From an uncultured Clostridia bacterium (GTDB lineage Bacteria; Bacillota; Clostridia; Christensenellales; Pumilibacteraceae): 64,000 bases of DNA. Below the pieces are notes generated by a model that searched no databases, had not been told where the DNA came from, and saw only the letters and a list, made by a program, of their open reading frames with translations. A program made the position numbers and the translations under genes. The stretch lies in assembly GCA_947175335.1 (NCBI GenBank), contig CAMWMF010000003.1, forward strand, positions 1 to 64,000. The letters are read 5' to 3'. This document shows, one piece after another, positions 11,295 to 17,324 of the stretch. Every line of letters starts with the position of its first letter. Position 1 is the stretch's first letter.

Positions 11295-11621
11295 TTACAG
11301 CTTGCTTTTGTATTCGGTACCCCAGTCCAGCATAGCGTCGAGGATAGGCTTTAACGATTGTCCGAGCTCCGTCAGTGTGTATTCGACGCGCGGCGGCACT
11401 TCGGCATATACCTGTCTATTTATTATGCCGTCGTTTTCCAAGGCTCGAAGATTATCGGTTAGCACCTTTTTGCTGATGGCGGGAATGGTCTTGGGAAAAT
11501 CGCTAAAACGTTGAGCGCCGTTGAAAATCAAATTGCGTATTATAAGCAGCTTCCACTTGTTGCCGATAAGTTGAACGGTGGTGGCAACGGGGCATTCGGG
11601 TAATTCTTCGCGCGTCAGCAT
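11295..11621 (-). CDS. HxlR-family winged-helix regulator
   Basis: 108-aa dimeric DNA-binding protein. Family marks: CPVATTVQLIGNKWKLLIIR at the N-terminus, the wing/recognition region FSDFPKTIPAISKKVLTDNL, and TLTELGQSLKPILDAMLDWG near the end. ATG at 11621 was preferred over GTG 11630 because AAAGGAG sits 8 bases before it. It is divergent from the NTF2-like gene at 11817, whose control it likely exerts. HxlR members often respond to electrophiles or redox changes; there is a cysteine near the N-terminus (ECPV), as in redox-sensing members. Confidence 0.9.
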   Translation of the reverse strand: MLTREELPECPVATTVQLIGNKWKLLIIRNLIFNGAQRFSDFPKTIPAISKKVLTDNLRALENDGIINRQVYAEVPPRVEYTLTELGQSLKPILDAMLDWGTEYKSKL

Positions 11622-11642
11622 AATGTTCACTCCTTTTTCAGC

Positions 11643-11671
11643 ATTATAGCAGATATCGCTCCGAAAGTCAA
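11643..11671 (-). promoter_or_regulatory. Promoter of the HxlR gene
   Basis: Reading the minus strand: TTGACT (11671-11666), 17-base spacer, TATAAT (11648-11643). Confidence 0.85.
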
Positions 11672-11701
11672 TAGTTCAAAATAGAAACCTAGTAACAAAT
11701 A

Positions 11702-11716
11702 TATTATCTGATAATA
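11702..11716. promoter_or_regulatory. Candidate HxlR operator
   Basis: Perfect palindrome TATTAT-CTG-ATAATA midway between the two divergent promoters. AGTAAC copies flank it on either side. Assignment to the adjacent HxlR protein is inferred from position. Confidence 0.45.
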
Positions 11717-11730
11717 GAAAAGTAACGTTA

Positions 11731-11759
11731 TTGTATTCCTTTTTTGCCTTTGCTATACT
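11731..11759 (+). promoter_or_regulatory. Promoter of the NTF2-like gene
   Basis: TTGTAT 11731-11736, 17-base spacer, TATACT 11754-11759. Confidence 0.7.
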
Positions 11760-11816
11760 ATGAGTGTAATCAATGAGGTTGCAAAAATAATTCAAATTCT
11801 TTCGGAGGTATCTATT

Positions 11817-12590
11817 ATGACGAACAACGTTCAAAAGGCAAAGGAACTTATTAACTGCTTTGTTAGCGGCGACACGGAAAAGGCGAAGTTGCTTTTGAAA
11901 GAGGGCTACATTCAGCATAACCTTGCATACGGCACGGGCAGAGATGCATTTCTCGGCTCGGTTGCTTATCTCGGCGGAGCTCCCGTTAAGACTACGGTAA
12001 ACACAATCCGCGCTTTCGAGGACGGCGACAAAGTGTATATGCAAACCGTATACAATTTTGCGGGTGCGGGCGAACAGGTTGCGTTTGACATTTTCCGTTT
12101 TGAAGACGGTTTAATTGCGGAGCATTGGGATAATCTTGCGGATAAGGCTCAACCCAACCCGTCGGGAAGAACGCAAATCGACGGTCAAACGGAAGCAAAA
12201 GACCTTGATAAAACGGAAGCAAACCGTGAAGTGGTTAAGAATTTCTTATACGATGTAATGCAGGGCAAAAACCCGCAAAAAACGCCCGACTACTTTGACG
12301 GTGATAAGTATTTGCAACACAATACGGGAATTGCGGACGGACTTTCGGGCTTGGGCGCAGCTTTGGAAGCACTCGGCAAAGCGGGCATTGCTATGATTTA
12401 CGATAAAGTTCATCAGGTGCTTGCACAAGGCGATATGGTGCTTGCGGTATCGGAAGGTACGTTCGGCGGCAAGCCTACTTCATACTACGATTTATGGCGT
12501 GTGGAAAACGGCAAGATTGCGGAACATTGGGACGTAATGGAAACTATTGCAGACAAGTCAACTTGGGCGAACAATAACGGCAAATTCTAA
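11817..12590 (+). CDS. Tandem SnoaL/NTF2-like protein
   Basis: 257 aa made of two cone-shaped NTF2-like domains: residues 8-115 (YIQHNLAYGTGRDAF to FEDGLIAEHWDNL) and 140-250 (YLQHNTGIADGLSGL to VENGKIAEHWDVM). The parallel QHN and AEHWD motifs show an internal duplication. Such proteins act as small-molecule isomerases/hydrolases or binding proteins in the cytosol; substrate is unknown. ATG 11817 follows CGGAGG by about 8 bases. Codon use (more aaa, gaa, att) differs from the housekeeping genes, suggesting transfer together with the divergent HxlR regulator. Confidence 0.85.
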   Translation: MTNNVQKAKELINCFVSGDTEKAKLLLKEGYIQHNLAYGTGRDAFLGSVAYLGGAPVKTTVNTIRAFEDGDKVYMQTVYNFAGAGEQVAFDIFRFEDGLIAEHWDNLADKAQPNPSGRTQIDGQTEAKDLDKTEANREVVKNFLYDVMQGKNPQKTPDYFDGDKYLQHNTGIADGLSGLGAALEALGKAGIAMIYDKVHQVLAQGDMVLAVSEGTFGGKPTSYYDLWRVENGKIAEHWDVMETIADKSTWANNNGKF

Positions 12591-12606
12591 TAAAAGTAAC
12601 CGTATT

Positions 12607-12637
12607 AAGCGCAGTCGCTTTGTCGATTGCGCTTTTT
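12607..12637 (+). terminator. Terminator of the NTF2-like gene
   Basis: AGCGCAGTCG pairs with CGATTGCGCT around a short loop, followed by ttttta. Confidence 0.8.
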
Positions 12638-12651
12638 ACGCTTTTTGAGAT

Positions 12652-13269
12652 ATGGAAACGATAAAAATATTTAAGTATTTGCAAGAGCAAATTCATACAA
12701 CGATAATAGCCACAAATGACGAAAACGGTTTGCCCGTTACTTGCGCTATTGACATTATGGATTATGACGAAAACGGACTGTACTTTCTCACCGCAAAGGG
12801 CAAAAACTTTTATAAGCGGTTAAAAACGAACGGCTATCTTTCTCTTACGGGTATTAAAGGCGAAAATACTTTGTCTTGCGTTGCGATTTCCGTTCACGGG
12901 GAAGTCAAGGAAATCGGCTCGGAACGGCTTAAAAGACTTCTTGACAAAAATCCGTATATGCATGAGATTTATCCTACCGAACAATCACGCTCGGCACTTG
13001 CCGTATTTTGCTTATACGTCGGTAGCGGAGAATGGTTTGACCTTTCTAAAAAACCGATTGAACGGTTTTCGTTTTCATTTGGTGGAACAGGTGCAAAAGC
13101 CAACGGATATTTTATAACGGATAAGTGTGTCGGTTGCGGTAAATGTTTGACTGTATGCCCGCAGGATTGTATAATAATGGACAAGAAAGCAACAATCAAA
13201 AAAGAGAATTGTTTGCACTGCGGAAACTGTATGCAAATATGCCCGACGAAAGCGGTTATAAGGAAATAA
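12652..13269 (+). CDS. Pyridoxamine 5'-phosphate oxidase-like flavin domain fused to a 2[4Fe-4S] ferredoxin
   Basis: 205 aa. Residues 1-140 are a split-barrel flavin-binding (PNPOx-like) domain with PVTCAIDIMDYDENGLYFLT. Residues 150-205 are a ferredoxin with CVGCGKCLTVCP and CLHCGNCMQICP, so one chain could shuttle electrons between a flavin and two clusters. The ATG has no good SD and follows a terminator directly. The stop is 5 bases before the macrodomain gene, placing this redox protein at the head of the macrodomain-sirtuin-DUF5131 cluster. Partner and substrate are unknown. Confidence 0.85.
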   Translation: METIKIFKYLQEQIHTTIIATNDENGLPVTCAIDIMDYDENGLYFLTAKGKNFYKRLKTNGYLSLTGIKGENTLSCVAISVHGEVKEIGSERLKRLLDKNPYMHEIYPTEQSRSALAVFCLYVGSGEWFDLSKKPIERFSFSFGGTGAKANGYFITDKCVGCGKCLTVCPQDCIIMDKKATIKKENCLHCGNCMQICPTKAVIRK

Positions 13270-13274
13270 TAATT

Positions 13275-14054
13275 ATGGAACAGTCGGAAAGACTAAAATA
13301 TTTAATAGAATACTTGCTGTCGGAGAGAAAGCAACCGGTTGAGCTTCCGTCGAATTTGAACGACATGAAGCGGTACTTTCGCGCGCTGGTAAACGTGCGT
13401 ATGCCAAAGCAAGCAAGCGATGAATTTTTGCTGCTTCAAGACGAGTATTTGCAGGAAGAATTACAACGAAAAGGCGTGACCGATATTGCTACAATTTCGC
13501 CTGTGCCGTTTTCGCCCGATATCTATCTTTGGCAGGGCGATATAACCACGCTCAAATGCGACGGCATAGTCAACGCCGCAAACAGTCAAATGCTCGGCTG
13601 TTTTTGTCCAAACCATGGCTGTATAGACAACGCCATCCATACCTTTGCGGGCGTGCAGCTGCGACTGGAATGTGCGGGTATTATGGAAGCGCAGGGCAAG
13701 CCCGAGCTGACGGGCAGCGCCAAAATAACGCGCGGCTATAACTTGCCGTGCAAGTACGTTTTGCATACAGTCGGTCCCATCGTTTACGGTGGGCTTACAA
13801 CAAAACACGAGGATCAGCTTGCAAGCTGTTACCGCTCGTGCCTCGAGCTTGCCGACAAAAACGGCTTGCAAAGCATTGCGTTTTGCTGTATTTCCACAGG
13901 CGAGTTTCACTTTCCAAACGAGCGCGCCGCCGAGATAGCGATAGCTATGGTATGCGAATACAAACAAAAAACGAAAAGCAATATCAAGGTTATTTTCAAC
14001 GTTTTCAAGGATTACGATTATGGCATTTACGCAAGACTTCTCGGCGCAAATTAA
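13275..14054 (+). CDS. Zinc-dependent macrodomain protein-ADP-ribose hydrolase
   Basis: 259 aa; removes ADP-ribose from proteins. Residues 1-75 are the helical N-terminal extension of the Zn-macro class. The macrodomain has GDITTLKCDGIVNAAN (residues 88-103, ADP-ribose contacts). The class-specific loop MLGCFCPNHGCIDNAIH holds the C/H/C zinc ligands (C109 or C111, H114, C116). ATG 13275 lies 5 bases after the flavin/ferredoxin gene with AAGGAAAT upstream; its 3' end overlaps the sirtuin gene by 35 bases. In Staphylococcus and Streptococcus this class is genetically linked to class M sirtuins and reverses their modification; the same pairing is seen here. Confidence 0.93.
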   Translation: MEQSERLKYLIEYLLSERKQPVELPSNLNDMKRYFRALVNVRMPKQASDEFLLLQDEYLQEELQRKGVTDIATISPVPFSPDIYLWQGDITTLKCDGIVNAANSQMLGCFCPNHGCIDNAIHTFAGVQLRLECAGIMEAQGKPELTGSAKITRGYNLPCKYVLHTVGPIVYGGLTTKHEDQLASCYRSCLELADKNGLQSIAFCCISTGEFHFPNERAAEIAIAMVCEYKQKTKSNIKVIFNVFKDYDYGIYARLLGAN

Positions 14055-14877
14055 AAGATTGCAAGCCGCGCTCGATAGTGCCGATTGTGTGATTATCGGC
14101 GCGGGCGCTGGGCTTTCCACGTCGGCGGGCTTTGTCTATTCCGGCGAACGTTTCCGCAAGAATTTTGCCGACTTCGAGGCGAAGTATAATTTTCACGACA
14201 TGTACAGCGGCGGATTTTATCCGTATGATACGCTCGAGGAGTTTTGGGCGTTTTGGTCGCGTAACGTTATGCTCAATCGGTACAGCGTGCCGCCGCTTCC
14301 CGTTTACGACACGCTGTACGCGCTTGTAAAGGACAAGGACTACTTTGTGCTTACGACCAACGTGGACCATTGCTTTCAAAAAGCGGGGTTTGACAAGTCG
14401 CGGCTTTTTTACACACAAGGGGATTACGGCTTGTTTCAATGCTCGGTGCCTTGCCATAACAAGACATACGATAACGAGGATATTATTCGCCGAATGGTAG
14501 CCGAGCAAAGGGATATGAAAATCCCGACAGAGCTTGTTCCGCGCTGCCCGATATGCGGCAATCCCATGACAATGAACTTGCGCTGCGACGATACTTTTGT
14601 GCAAGACGACGGTTGGGATAAGGCGTGCGAGCGGTATGAGCAGTTTGTCCACAAGCACAAGGACTCGCGCGTACTCTATCTTGAACTCGGCGTTGGTAGC
14701 AATACGCCCGTAATAATCAAATATCCGTTTTGGCGGTTTACAAGCCAAAACCCCAATGCCACTTACGCATGTATTAATTACGGCGAAGCGACGTGCCCGC
14801 CGCAAATACAAAGCCGCTCTATATGTATCAACGCCGACATAGGCGATGTGTTATCGGCAATTAAGTGGGGCGAGTGA
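14020..14877 (+). CDS. Class M sirtuin (SirTM), likely protein ADP-ribosyltransferase
   Basis: 285-aa sirtuin fold. GAGAGLSTSAGF (28-38) is the NAD-binding loop and TTNVDHCF (112-119) the sugar-binding motif. The usual catalytic HG is replaced by TQGDYG, so the residues are N114, D116 and Q133. These correspond to the Asn/Asp/Gln trio described for streptococcal SirTM, which transfers ADP-ribose instead of deacetylating. Zinc cysteines are at CSVPC (141, 145) and CPICG (176, 179). The start is ATG 14020 with AAGGA upstream, inside the macrodomain 3' end. Known SirTM targets a lipoylated GcvH-like protein; no gcvH or lplA homologue lies in this window, so the target here is open. Confidence 0.93.
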   Translation: MAFTQDFSAQIKRLQAALDSADCVIIGAGAGLSTSAGFVYSGERFRKNFADFEAKYNFHDMYSGGFYPYDTLEEFWAFWSRNVMLNRYSVPPLPVYDTLYALVKDKDYFVLTTNVDHCFQKAGFDKSRLFYTQGDYGLFQCSVPCHNKTYDNEDIIRRMVAEQRDMKIPTELVPRCPICGNPMTMNLRCDDTFVQDDGWDKACERYEQFVHKHKDSRVLYLELGVGSNTPVIIKYPFWRFTSQNPNATYACINYGEATCPPQIQSRSICINADIGDVLSAIKWGE

Positions 14878-15752
14878 TGCACGATATTTGGAATCCGTGG
14901 CACGGCTGTCAAAAATGCAGCGAGGGTTGTCAGCACTGCTATATGTATTACCTCGACAAAACGCATAACGGCGGCGACAGCTCGGTCATTACAAAGACTA
15001 ACGGCTTTTATTACCCGCTTTCCAAAAACCGCGACGGCAGCTACAAGGTGAAAAGCGGGGAGATGATACGCGTTTGCATGACGTCCGACTTTTTTGTGGA
15101 AGGTGCGGACGAGTGGCGCAACGAGGCGTGGAATATAATTCACGACCGTCCCGACGTAAAGTTTTTTCTGCTGACAAAACGCCCCGAGCGCGTGGGTAAG
15201 CTGCTGCCTAAGGACTGGGGCGACGGCTGGGAAAACGTGTTCTTTAACGTTACGTGCGAAAACCAGCGCCGTGCCGACGAGCGTATACCCATACTGCACG
15301 AATTACCATTTAAACACAAGGGCATTATGACCGCGCCACTGATCGGCGAAATATCGATAGCCAAGTATTTGGAGCAAGGACAAATCGAGCAGGTTATTTG
15401 CGGCGGGGAAAACTATGACGGCGCGCGCCCGTGCCGGTACGATTGGGTTAAAAAGCTGTCCGACGAATGCAAGGCGCACGACGTAACTTTTGCGTTTATA
15501 GAAACGGGCAATTATTACGTTAAGAACGGCAAGACGCAATTTATAAAAAGCAAAATACGCCAAACGTATATGGCGTATGCGGAAGGACTGTCGCATGTCG
15601 GCAAGCCTATCGAATTCAAGCTGACCGATAGGTTTGGATTGCCTGTCCCGCAAAGCGAGTTATACGTGCCGCATTACCGCCCAAATTGCAGTCGCTGCGG
15701 AAACAAACTTATTTGCAACGGGTGCTCTAATTGCGGCAGGTGCGATAAATAA
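14877..15752 (+). CDS. DUF5131 / phage Gp37-Gp68-like radical-SAM-type protein
   Basis: 291 aa. It begins MHDIWNPWHGC with C11-x2-C14-x3-C18-x2-C21; C14/C18/C21 with the aromatic next to C21 fit the radical SAM CxxxCxxC cluster. Later blocks ICGGENYDGARPCRYDW and FAFIETGNYYV are typical of the DUF5131 family. The C-terminus adds a cysteine-rich tail (NCSRCGNKLICNGCSNCGRC) able to bind a further metal site. Start ATG 14877 overlaps the sirtuin TGA (TGATG), so it is translationally coupled to it. Reaction unknown; coupling suggests it makes, repairs or modifies the substrate of the sirtuin/macrodomain pair. Confidence 0.85.
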   Translation: MHDIWNPWHGCQKCSEGCQHCYMYYLDKTHNGGDSSVITKTNGFYYPLSKNRDGSYKVKSGEMIRVCMTSDFFVEGADEWRNEAWNIIHDRPDVKFFLLTKRPERVGKLLPKDWGDGWENVFFNVTCENQRRADERIPILHELPFKHKGIMTAPLIGEISIAKYLEQGQIEQVICGGENYDGARPCRYDWVKKLSDECKAHDVTFAFIETGNYYVKNGKTQFIKSKIRQTYMAYAEGLSHVGKPIEFKLTDRFGLPVPQSELYVPHYRPNCSRCGNKLICNGCSNCGRCDK

Positions 15753-15775
15753 TTGGTAAATGCTAATCGGCACGC

Positions 15776-15988
15776 TTATTGTTTGCGCCCGATAAGCACG
15801 TCTATATCCTCGTCGAAGTAATCGGCAATCTTGCACAAATTTTCCAAAGTTATTTCACGCTGACACAGCAAATACCGCGACAACGTTTGTTGCGGTATTC
15901 CTATTTTTTTGGAAAATTCGTTTACCGACATGTCGCCGATAAGCAGCCGTAAATTGTACGCAAAATTTTGTTTGTAATTATTTTTCAT
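15776..15988 (-). CDS. XRE-family HTH repressor
   Basis: 70 aa, essentially one Cro/CI-type helix-turn-helix: LRLLIGDMSVNEFSKKIGIP then QQTLSRYLLCQREITLENLC. It has no ligand or protease domain, so it is a minimal repressor. It is divergent from the coiled-coil membrane protein at 16087; two similar 18-bp palindromes lie between them. Autoregulation and repression of the divergent gene are the likely roles. Confidence 0.9.
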   Translation of the reverse strand: MKNNYKQNFAYNLRLLIGDMSVNEFSKKIGIPQQTLSRYLLCQREITLENLCKIADYFDEDIDVLIGRKQ

Positions 15989-15997
15989 AAAACAATT

Positions 15998-16015
15998 TTA
16001 CACCGTATGGCGTAA
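15998..16015. promoter_or_regulatory. XRE operator copy 1
   Basis: TTACACCGTATGGCGTAA, an imperfect palindrome 10 bases upstream of the XRE start codon; likely autoregulatory site. Confidence 0.6.
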
Positions 16016-16020
16016 TATCC

Positions 16021-16050
16021 TTGACATTACACCAAACGGTGTGATATTAT
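16021..16050 (+). promoter_or_regulatory. Promoter of the coiled-coil membrane gene with operator in its spacer
   Basis: TTGACA 16021-16026 and TATTAT 16045-16050. The 18-base spacer (16027-16044) is exactly the palindrome TTACACCAAACGGTGTGA, related to the copy at 15998. A bound repressor would block RNA polymerase outright. Confidence 0.8.
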
Positions 16051-16086
16051 ATGCAAAAGATTGCAAGTATATTTACGGAGGAAAAT

Positions 16087-17304
16087 ATGGCGGTAGGGCA
16101 AGACAAAATCGGGCTTAGCGAAAAGGATGAAACGATAGGGCGGCTGTACGCGTTGCGCGCAGGACTTTCCGTCGTCGCTCGGGAAAAGGAAACCGCGGAC
16201 GGGATTATGTGCGATGCAAAAAATAATAAGAAAAGAGTTATGGAAATTGCTGCCGATAGAGTAGTAAAAGAGGAAAATAACCTCGAAAACGAGCAGAAAA
16301 AATTGGACAACATTCCGAAAAAAATATTTGATTTACAGAAAAAAGCTAAAAGTGTCGGAATAATTCCTCGTGTAATTCTTGATACGATAATTCTTTGTAT
16401 TGCTCTTGGCGGAGTGTATTTGTTTTTTGTTGGGGTGGCGCAATTTATACTTCATGGCATTATTTATGAGCCACGTGAGGCATTACCTGGATTGTGGGAG
16501 CCGTTAATTGGTTGGATAGATTTTGGTTGGTTTTGGATTCTTATAGTAGCGGGATTTATTTCAGGCGGCGGAATGTTTGCGCTTTTGAGCCTATCAAATG
16601 AATACATTTATAAGTGTTCTTATCGTGAAAGAAAAAAAGCCCGTACAGATATTGTTGATTTGCAAAATAGTATACCTATTCATCAGAACGCGATAGCTGT
16701 TGCAAAGTCAAAAGTGATAGAGCAACGAAAGCAAATGGATAGAGATACGTTGGCAGCTGACAAGCATATAGCTGAGGAAAAGAAAAAAGCCACTGAACAC
16801 GCGGTTGCGGGGCTTGTTATGATAAACGCTCTTGAAGATTCGTTTGGGGATTTAATTGACCCGCGCGATTGGGAAAATACCGACATATTGATTTACGCCT
16901 TGGAAACGCGGCGTGCGGAAAATATGAAAGAGGCGTTGCAGGTGGTGGACGGCGAGCGGCGTACCGAACGCATAGTCGAGGCTGTCAACACGGCGGGGCA
17001 AGAAATATGTAAGTCGATTAACACAGGCTTGCGCAGACTGCAAAGCGAGATGACGAGGTGTTTTGGTATACTCGGTGAGCTGGTCGTTTTGCAAGGGGAT
17101 AGAATTGCTGGACACATGCAAAGCCTTAGCAACGGCATTGCGGCAAACAACAGCTATATGGCACAACTGACTACGCAACAAAGCATGAGCAACGCTTTGC
17201 TTGCAAAGGCGAACGAAAACAGCTCGGCGCTCACAGCTGAGGTTTCAAGATTGCGCACAGCCGCCGAATATGCCGAAGCGCGGTCGCTGTACGGCACAAG
17301 ATAA
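16087..17304 (+). CDS. Membrane protein with two TM helices and flanking coiled coils, XRE-controlled
   Basis: 405 aa; no family recognised. Residues 1-90 are charged and helical; TM helices are at about 96-122 (ILCIALGGVYLFFVGVAQF) and 146-170 (WFWILIVAGFISGGGMFALL). Residues 175-255 and 280-400 are long coiled coils, the latter with QLTTQQSMSNALLAKANENS. GGAGG sits 5 bases before ATG 16087; the earlier in-frame ATG at 16051 abuts the -10 box and cannot be used. The middle (16200-16850) is AT-rich with aaa/att codons while both ends use host-like gcg/cgc, so the gene looks mosaic. Its XRE repression and place in an accessory region suggest a stress- or phage-linked role, unproven. Confidence 0.75.
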   Translation: MAVGQDKIGLSEKDETIGRLYALRAGLSVVAREKETADGIMCDAKNNKKRVMEIAADRVVKEENNLENEQKKLDNIPKKIFDLQKKAKSVGIIPRVILDTIILCIALGGVYLFFVGVAQFILHGIIYEPREALPGLWEPLIGWIDFGWFWILIVAGFISGGGMFALLSLSNEYIYKCSYRERKKARTDIVDLQNSIPIHQNAIAVAKSKVIEQRKQMDRDTLAADKHIAEEKKKATEHAVAGLVMINALEDSFGDLIDPRDWENTDILIYALETRRAENMKEALQVVDGERRTERIVEAVNTAGQEICKSINTGLRRLQSEMTRCFGILGELVVLQGDRIAGHMQSLSNGIAANNSYMAQLTTQQSMSNALLAKANENSSALTAEVSRLRTAAEYAEARSLYGTR

Positions 17305-17324
17305 TTCCTAAAAATATTTGCAAC

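Follow-up and report, generated by a model that had tools for sequence, protein, structure and literature searches.

In Staphylococcus aureus and Streptococcus pyogenes, the class M sirtuin SirTM is encoded in an extended operon together with GcvH-L, a zinc-dependent macrodomain protein (Zn-Macro), LplA2, OYE and LLM; the accessible text of two papers (PMC4518038, PMC11490716) describes an overlapping Zn-Macro/SirTM core, flavin oxidoreductase partners and a proposed link to oxidative stress. The same sources also describe lone SirTM/Zn-Macro pairs without GcvH-L (Rack 2015, PMC4518038; Ariza 2024, PMC11490716), including those of Enterococcus faecalis and Treponema pedis, and report that Zn-macrodomains of lone pairs and of fusions failed to demodify GcvH-L (PMC11490716). 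Here, we analyzed a 64,000-nucleotide stretch of an uncultured Clostridia bacterium (positions 1 to 64,000 of contig CAMWMF010000003.1, assembly GCA_947175335.1; hereafter the window), in which a SirTM/Zn-Macro pair lies next to a gene of the uncharacterized family DUF5131. Like the extended SirTM operon it has the overlapping core and flavin oxidoreductase partners, whereas GcvH-L and LplA2 were not found in the genome, and PNPOx-Fd, SnoaL, DUF5131 and HxlR genes replace OYE and LLM. It shares the lack of GcvH-L with the lone pairs but, unlike those described in the accessible text, it lies within a larger operon that is linked to HxlR and includes exchangeable cassettes as well as DUF5131. 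With moderate confidence, we read the locus as a GcvH-L-free lone-pair system within a probable thiol-stress operon, which would act as a reversible switch on a non-lipoylated redox target. The core consists of four genes:

12652..13269, + strand: fusion of PNPOx_N with two 4Fe-4S ferredoxin units (PNPOx-Fd or FlFd; PNPOx_N and Fer4 matches)
13275..14054, + strand: zinc-dependent macrodomain, protein-ADP-ribose hydrolase (PRK04143; 8rsi; zinc site C109/H114/C116)
14020..14877, + strand: class M sirtuin SirTM with QG motif Q133, N114, D116 and R188 (5a3a match)
14877..15752, + strand: long-form DUF5131 with Cys triad C11/C18/C21 and a C-terminal Cys-rich tail (PF07505)

An initial annotation of this DNA had described four tightly packed genes spaced by +5, -35 and -1 bases, and both their coordinates and their spacing hold. 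SirTM starts at 14020 inside the macrodomain gene, which ends at 14054, and the SirTM and DUF5131 genes share a single base (14877). The macrodomain protein scores 364.3 bits against the NCBIfam model PRK04143 of protein-ADP-ribose hydrolases (cut-off 272), and its closest solved structures are Zn-macrodomains (8rsi, E 4e-79). It contains the Cys-His-Cys zinc site (C109/H114/C116), which in this class takes the place of the glycine loop, followed by the Dx3H motif (D118xxxH122); the zinc ligands are kept in 63/63 aligned loci.

Class M sirtuins are distinguished by a QG motif replacing the catalytic HG, by N118/R192 and by the motif GVGx[NT]TP (accessible text of PMC4518038 and PMC11490716). 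The window protein has Q133-G, N114, R188 and GVGSNTP, and it adjoins a Zn-macrodomain. The residues N114, D116 and Q133, which had been listed before, were found aligned with Asn118, Asp120 and Gln137 of SpySirTM, and R188 with its Arg192; among 75 aligned loci, N114 and Q133 are each conserved in 74 and D116 in 73. The nearest solved relatives are SpySirTM (5a3a, E 9.6e-75) and 8rsn (E 2.4e-21), and the SIR2-type Pfam match does not reach its cut-off, which is unsurprising for so divergent a class. The macrodomain of the window has Tyr-Gly at the positions where 5kiv, which we take to be SauMacro, the S. aureus protein, has Arg-Arg. The GcvH-L contact patch of the Zn-macrodomain includes Arg175/Arg176 (accessible text of PMC11490716), to which the Arg-Arg pair of 5kiv presumably corresponds. 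Elsewhere, four genomes were seen to carry divergent SirTM-like genes in tandem or in clusters, most of them with 33-40% identity to the window SirTM (G287:C1:88612-91191 and 1042080-1044494; also G267, G290 and G293).

Neither gcvH-L nor lplA2 is present in the window operon, as the initial annotation had noted, and a search of the window's genome (1.96 Mb, 52 contigs, 94% complete) likewise gave no match for GcvH or LplA-B_cat. The sole biotin_lipoyl protein of this genome carries a biotin-type EAMKMEN motif, in an operon that by eye is decarboxylase-like. Our sampling comprised 248 genomes of the order, 299 genomes of the phylum, 74 further genome searches and the best 80 DUF5131 loci described below. 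In the order sample SirTM was called at E 1e-20, and strong GcvH genes were hand-picked at E <1e-20 from the 87 genomes matching at E 0.001. SirTM was found in 53/248 genomes, strong GcvH in 69/248 and both in 13 (P 0.78). Their co-occurrence is at chance level, and lone SirTM is therefore independent of GcvH in the order, with 40 of the 53 SirTM genomes having no strong GcvH. Among 24 genomes with both DUF5131 and SirTM, a GCV_H match at E 0.001 was obtained in seven, and it was strong only in two Bacteroidota. GcvH as a hidden substrate was rejected, since it was absent from the genome search and unassociated with SirTM. The assumption that known bacterial SirTM systems carry gcvH-L and lplA is not supported in view of the lone pairs published in 2015 and 2024; the proposal built on it, a target other than lipoyl-GcvH, agrees with the genome searches, and the target is probably not lipoyl-GcvH.

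The operon extends beyond the region originally delimited (12652-15752) and also includes an HxlR gene (11295-11630) and a SnoaL gene (11760-12590):

11295..11630, - strand: HxlR/MarR-type regulator with an N-terminal Cys, divergent from the operon (PF01638, E 2.9e-35)
11702..11716, no strand: perfect palindrome TATTATC-T-GATAATA, located between the HxlR gene and the operon, an operator candidate only
11736..13372, no strand: exchangeable cassette, delimited by blastn against the sister loci L129, L130 and L131
11760..12590, + strand: SnoaL-like protein with two domains (PF12680 and PF07366), encoded at the head of the swapped cassette; its start is probably an internal ATG near 11817

The three sister loci occupy the same chromosomal site, with upstream DNA 80-93% identical to the window and 85-92% DNA identity over most of the macrodomain, SirTM and DUF5131 genes. 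Similarity ends at 11736-11746, 20-30 bases past the palindrome, and restarts in all three sisters at 13372, 97 bases inside the macrodomain gene. The intervening segment encodes SnoaL and PNPOx-Fd in the window, and a cupin in L130 (Cupin_2, as confirmed with a homologue). In L129 and L131 it encodes an ACGX-repeat peptide, a radical S-adenosylmethionine (SAM)/SPASM protein, another PNPOx-Fd and a nitroreductase (families profile-scanned in L129 only). The DNA leading from the HxlR promoter to the start of the macrodomain gene is thus exchanged among sister genomes. The window cassette is also found in a member of another family (L043), in one continuous 74% match over 11303-14044. Downstream of DUF5131, the window has a helix-turn-helix gene and one for a 417-residue protein that gave no Pfam match (15755-17308), which are absent from L129, where DNA similarity restarts at window position 17309.

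Nitroreductase, PNPOx-Fd and quinone-reductase-like genes recur near the SirTM/Zn-Macro pair, the quinone reductase match being below cut-off. A PNPOx-Fd homologue lies within 4 kb in 13/56 loci with SirTM only, 7/25 with SirTM and DUF5131, and 2/49 with DUF5131 only. An apparent FlFd-Macro fusion (L047:5460-6866, a 467-residue open frame), a candidate for Rosetta-stone evidence, was rejected as a real fusion and left unused because its FlFd gene is apparently disrupted near the second Fe-S motif.

The last gene of the core passes the PF07505 gathering score (146.7 versus 28.9 bits). Compared to DUF5131 proteins at large, the window protein is a long form of about 291 residues with a Cys-rich C-terminal tail, recurrently located beside SirTM. 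The CxxxCxxC motif reported for it earlier exists in the window through C14, but the conserved triad is C-x6-C-x2-C. In a 75-row alignment the invariant Cys set is C11-x6-C18-x2-C21, and C14, replaced by V in L095 and by I in L152, is a majority residue outside the invariant or nearly invariant columns. The protein lacks the canonical CxxxCxxC as a conserved motif and gave no match to PF04055 (radical SAM) at E 0.001; its score against TIGR04471 (rSAM_mob_pairA) is far below cut-off, and a sequence search against solved structures returned nothing at E 1. An AlphaFold model built from the 75 rows (pLDDT, the predicted local distance difference test score, 91.8) replaced a poor model from a shallow six-row alignment (pLDDT 58.8). 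Its best fold match in the PDB is the radical SAM enzyme RlmN (3rf9), a weak one (probability 0.99, E 2.5e-3, template modelling score 0.40), and no match was obtained in the fold search at E 0.001. In the order sample, the full-length long form occurs in 6/248 genomes, plus one fragment; 51 genomes match DUF5131 in all, the remaining ones with a shorter form that is roughly 40-50% identical. The window's genome has a second, short-form gene of this type (C1:29631-30284; L128, G000:C1:22000-38000), 44% identical to the first.

A scan of genome contigs from 84,980 species revealed at least 572 DUF5131 relatives, and because only the best 80 of these were kept, the locus set leans to window-like proteins. 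SirTM is adjacent in 24 of the best 80 loci (23 with a stricter cut) and not adjacent in 41; in 15 the stretch was too short. The tree rows comprise these 80 loci, the window, L039, L122 and seven phylum loci, giving 26 adjacent, 49 non-adjacent and 15 unknown among 90. In all 26 adjacent pairs the two genes share a strand and lie no more than 103 bp apart, SirTM being upstream in 23 and downstream in 3. On this quick tree without bootstrap, the adjacency label changes 12 times, at least 7 changes being forced by starred branches, and is clustered (0/500 shuffles as low). Adjacency was seen in Bacillota and Bacteroidota, and also in a single record that carries the label Proteobacteria. The DUF5131-SirTM linkage is recurrent, with 26 of 90 rows adjacent and 7 to 12 tree changes; the initial annotation had named a lack of such linkage as grounds for dropping its proposal. 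For the 57 loci non-adjacent under the stricter cut, 50 genomes were searched and SirTM was found elsewhere in 33; one of the 50 (L135) was later found to have the genes adjacent, at a contig edge. In the phylum sample (SirTM at E 1e-40, long DUF5131 at E 1e-90), SirTM occurs in 11/299 genomes, long DUF5131 in 8 and the two together in 3, one of them the window's genome (P 0.002, or 0.02 when the window is excluded), the genes being non-adjacent in the other two.

Long DUF5131 genes without SirTM also have a conserved neighbourhood of their own (L120:3565-4443, L121:9379-10257, L137, L141, L144, L145). The genes assigned there by eye are queA-, tgt- and yajC-like; the neighbourhood also encodes a small membrane protein and a SCIFF maturase (in L120, 582 bits against TIGR03974). 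In other SirTM loci, a DUF1848 gene (PF08902; family scan run on L270, L073 and L214) is located on the SirTM strand, directly after SirTM (6-41 bp) in L270:6884-7822, L073:8127-9050 and L076:7529-8455, and 753 bp away in L214:3087-3833. DUF1848 may stand in for DUF5131, because the C-terminal CGHLCKYCYAN of the L270 protein resembles a radical SAM Cys motif; a profile comparison of the two families found no similarity (E 0.21). In the open-access literature, we found no paper on DUF5131 or on DUF1848.

The ACGX genes of the sister loci belong to a system annotated in NCBIfam as TIGR04340 (rSAM_ACGX) and TIGR04341 (ACGX-repeat peptide), which is absent from the window and in two sister genomes stands at the same chromosomal site ahead of the same Zn-Macro-SirTM-DUF5131 core. 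The radical SAM proteins of the two operons scanned score 492.8 (L129) and 590.1 bits (L152) against TIGR04340 (cut-off 400). TIGR04341 is passed by the peptides of L136, L146, L161 and L152 (the last with 30.2 versus 28); no match was obtained for the L129 and L131 peptides, despite their eight and six ACG repeats, respectively. The recurring order is HxlR / peptide-radical SAM-nitroreductase or quinone-reductase-like gene-PNPOx-Fd-Macro-SirTM(-DUF5131), with members missing or swapped. The ACGX-Macro-SirTM order occurs in Bacillota and, without PNPOx-Fd, in the Bacteroidota locus L152, and a plasmid of Roseburia sp. 831b (L270) is annotated with acgA, acgM, nitroreductase, 4Fe-4S protein, protein-ADP-ribose hydrolase, SirTM and DUF1848. 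Four sampled genomes, G023 (L065), G212 (L050), G364 (L260) and G517 (L261), have rSAM_ACGX and SirTM in one run. The rSAM_ACGX gene was found in 7/248 order genomes, six of them with SirTM, and in 5/299 phylum genomes, three with SirTM (P 4e-4 in each sample); in the remaining three of these twelve genomes SirTM was not detected at the cut-offs applied. In L263-L266, rSAM_ACGX was seen without a recognised peptide or SirTM nearby.

At the upstream end, the redox regulators RrpB/RrpA match the window HxlR below cut-off, and an HxlR gene lies within 4 kb in 24/56 loci with SirTM only, 14/25 with SirTM and DUF5131, and 3/49 with DUF5131 only. All 38 HxlR neighbours among 81 SirTM loci have an N-terminal Cys. 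HxlR regulators have roles in thiol and electrophile stress. The palindrome has one match in the window (0.02 expected at up to one mismatch). It is present exactly in 6/81 SirTM loci and in a looser form in 14/81 (0/49 and 3/49 in controls), and its surroundings (about 11683-11735) appear by eye to be conserved in seven upstream regions. On these counts of exact and looser copies, the palindrome is at most a lineage feature.

The operon of this gut bacterium is probably stress-regulated and can probably both add and remove protein ADP-ribose; we infer its regulation, activities and substrate as follows. The N-terminal Cys of the divergent HxlR would serve to sense electrophile or disulfide stress, on which the regulator would derepress the operon. 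SirTM would use NAD to mono-ADP-ribosylate a non-lipoylated redox target, and the Zn-macrodomain would strip this mark, giving a reversible switch. The variable cassettes between promoter and macrodomain would provide redox chemistry, and DUF5131, the radical-SAM-like last gene, may act in the same pathway as an optional member in target maturation or repair. Several findings weigh against the switch proposed here. No substrate was identified among the window genes, and a missed gene is possible because the genome is 94% complete. Long DUF5131 lacks an adjacent SirTM in 49/90 rows, some of them by queA-tgt-yajC, and many of the 58 order loci come from fragmented genomes. HxlR was not found in 43/81 SirTM loci (some cut by contig ends), several of which carry Rrf2 instead, and the palindrome is degenerate in the nearest sisters (L129-L131).

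It is possible, though we hold it tentatively, that SirTM of the full operons has as its substrate the ACGX-repeat peptide itself (on Cys or Asp), as modified by the radical SAM/SPASM partner of the peptide, and that the window, whose cassette lacks the peptide, uses another target. The peptide and an rSAM_ACGX-like gene stand in one run with Macro-SirTM-DUF5131 in L129, L131, L136, L152, L158, L176 and L184, and with Macro-SirTM in L050, L260, L261 and the Roseburia plasmid; SirTM accompanies rSAM_ACGX in most genomes of both samples, as given above. Zn-macrodomains can cleave ADP-ribosyl-cysteine (accessible text of PMC11490716), so the Cys-rich peptide is a testable substrate candidate; by its likeness to the dithiol of lipoyl-GcvH-L, it would be an attractive one where present. 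The earlier suggestion of a modification prepared by radical chemistry gains indirect support from these sister operons. However, rSAM_ACGX was not found in the window's genome, and no ACG-repeat frame exists in the 64-kb window, the one part of this genome in which the peptide was sought. The peptide cannot be the only SirTM substrate, because 47/53 order SirTM genomes have no rSAM_ACGX. L267, L268 and L269 have peptide and radical SAM genes without Macro or SirTM in the stretch; the operon of L065 has no recognised peptide; and in L146 and L161 peptide, radical SAM gene and DUF5131 occur with SirTM not adjacent. The co-location may reflect shared regulation only. Should the peptide be the target, the SirTM/Zn-Macro pairs of full operons might reversibly ADP-ribosylate a radical-SAM-matured Cys-rich peptide, the window being a version with a swapped cassette, which we consider conceivable rather than probable. 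Equally speculative is its extension, that the peptide is a thiol counterpart of lipoyl-GcvH-L, an ADP-ribosylated redox peptide resembling ribosomally synthesized and post-translationally modified peptides, with DUF5131 or DUF1848 as a further radical enzyme.

DraT and DraG switch nitrogenase by reversible ADP-ribosylation, and DUF5131 could similarly be the protein switched by SirTM and Zn-Macro. The one-base overlap with SirTM in the window and the same-strand spacing in all 26 adjacent loci fit such a role, which is nevertheless unlikely given the long DUF5131 rows without adjacent SirTM; as a general SirTM substrate DUF5131 is unlikely because 50/53 order SirTM genomes lack the full-length long form. 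Toxin-antitoxin and defence systems such as DarTG combine a toxin with a protective macrodomain, and in a comparable phage-defence role SirTM would deplete NAD or modify host factors while the macrodomain protects. SirTM is patchy (53/248 order genomes, 0/2 of the same genus), its relatives occur on 27 plasmid records, DUF5131 matches two PADLOC candidate families, and SirTM and DUF5131 each match a PHROG family. PADLOC gave no match for SirTM or the macrodomain, the residues specific to SirTM transferases are kept, and redox partners and HxlR recur; the defence role is weak on the PADLOC and PHROG results and, in our view, quite improbable. The plasmid records include Roseburia, Subdoligranulum, Treponema, Enterococcus and lactobacilli. 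That the four genes are neighbours by chance is very improbable: DUF5131 is an optional member with a distribution of its own, but its adjacency to SirTM is recurrent, with 7 to 12 tree changes, and spans two phyla, and FlFd and HxlR are enriched near SirTM.

The favoured system, a switch on a non-lipoylated target, is not new in its lone-pair part, because such pairs are already in print. The recurrent DUF5131 linkage, the larger operon and the cassette swap in sister genomes go beyond the initial annotation, and an HxlR-linked, cassette-swapping SirTM operon with DUF5131 and ACGX genes was not found described in the open-access literature. Public annotation names the operon parts in the Roseburia record; no description of their association was found. 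The ACGX-peptide operons offer a small, co-encoded, Cys-rich candidate substrate for SirTM/Zn-Macro pairs outside GcvH-L operons, and a natural comparison is provided by the sister genomes, which join swapped cassettes to the same core. If the proposed role of the peptide is correct, reversible ADP-ribosylation would be joined to radical SAM peptide chemistry and thiol stress sensing, and the DUF5131 and DUF1848 families would gain a functional context.

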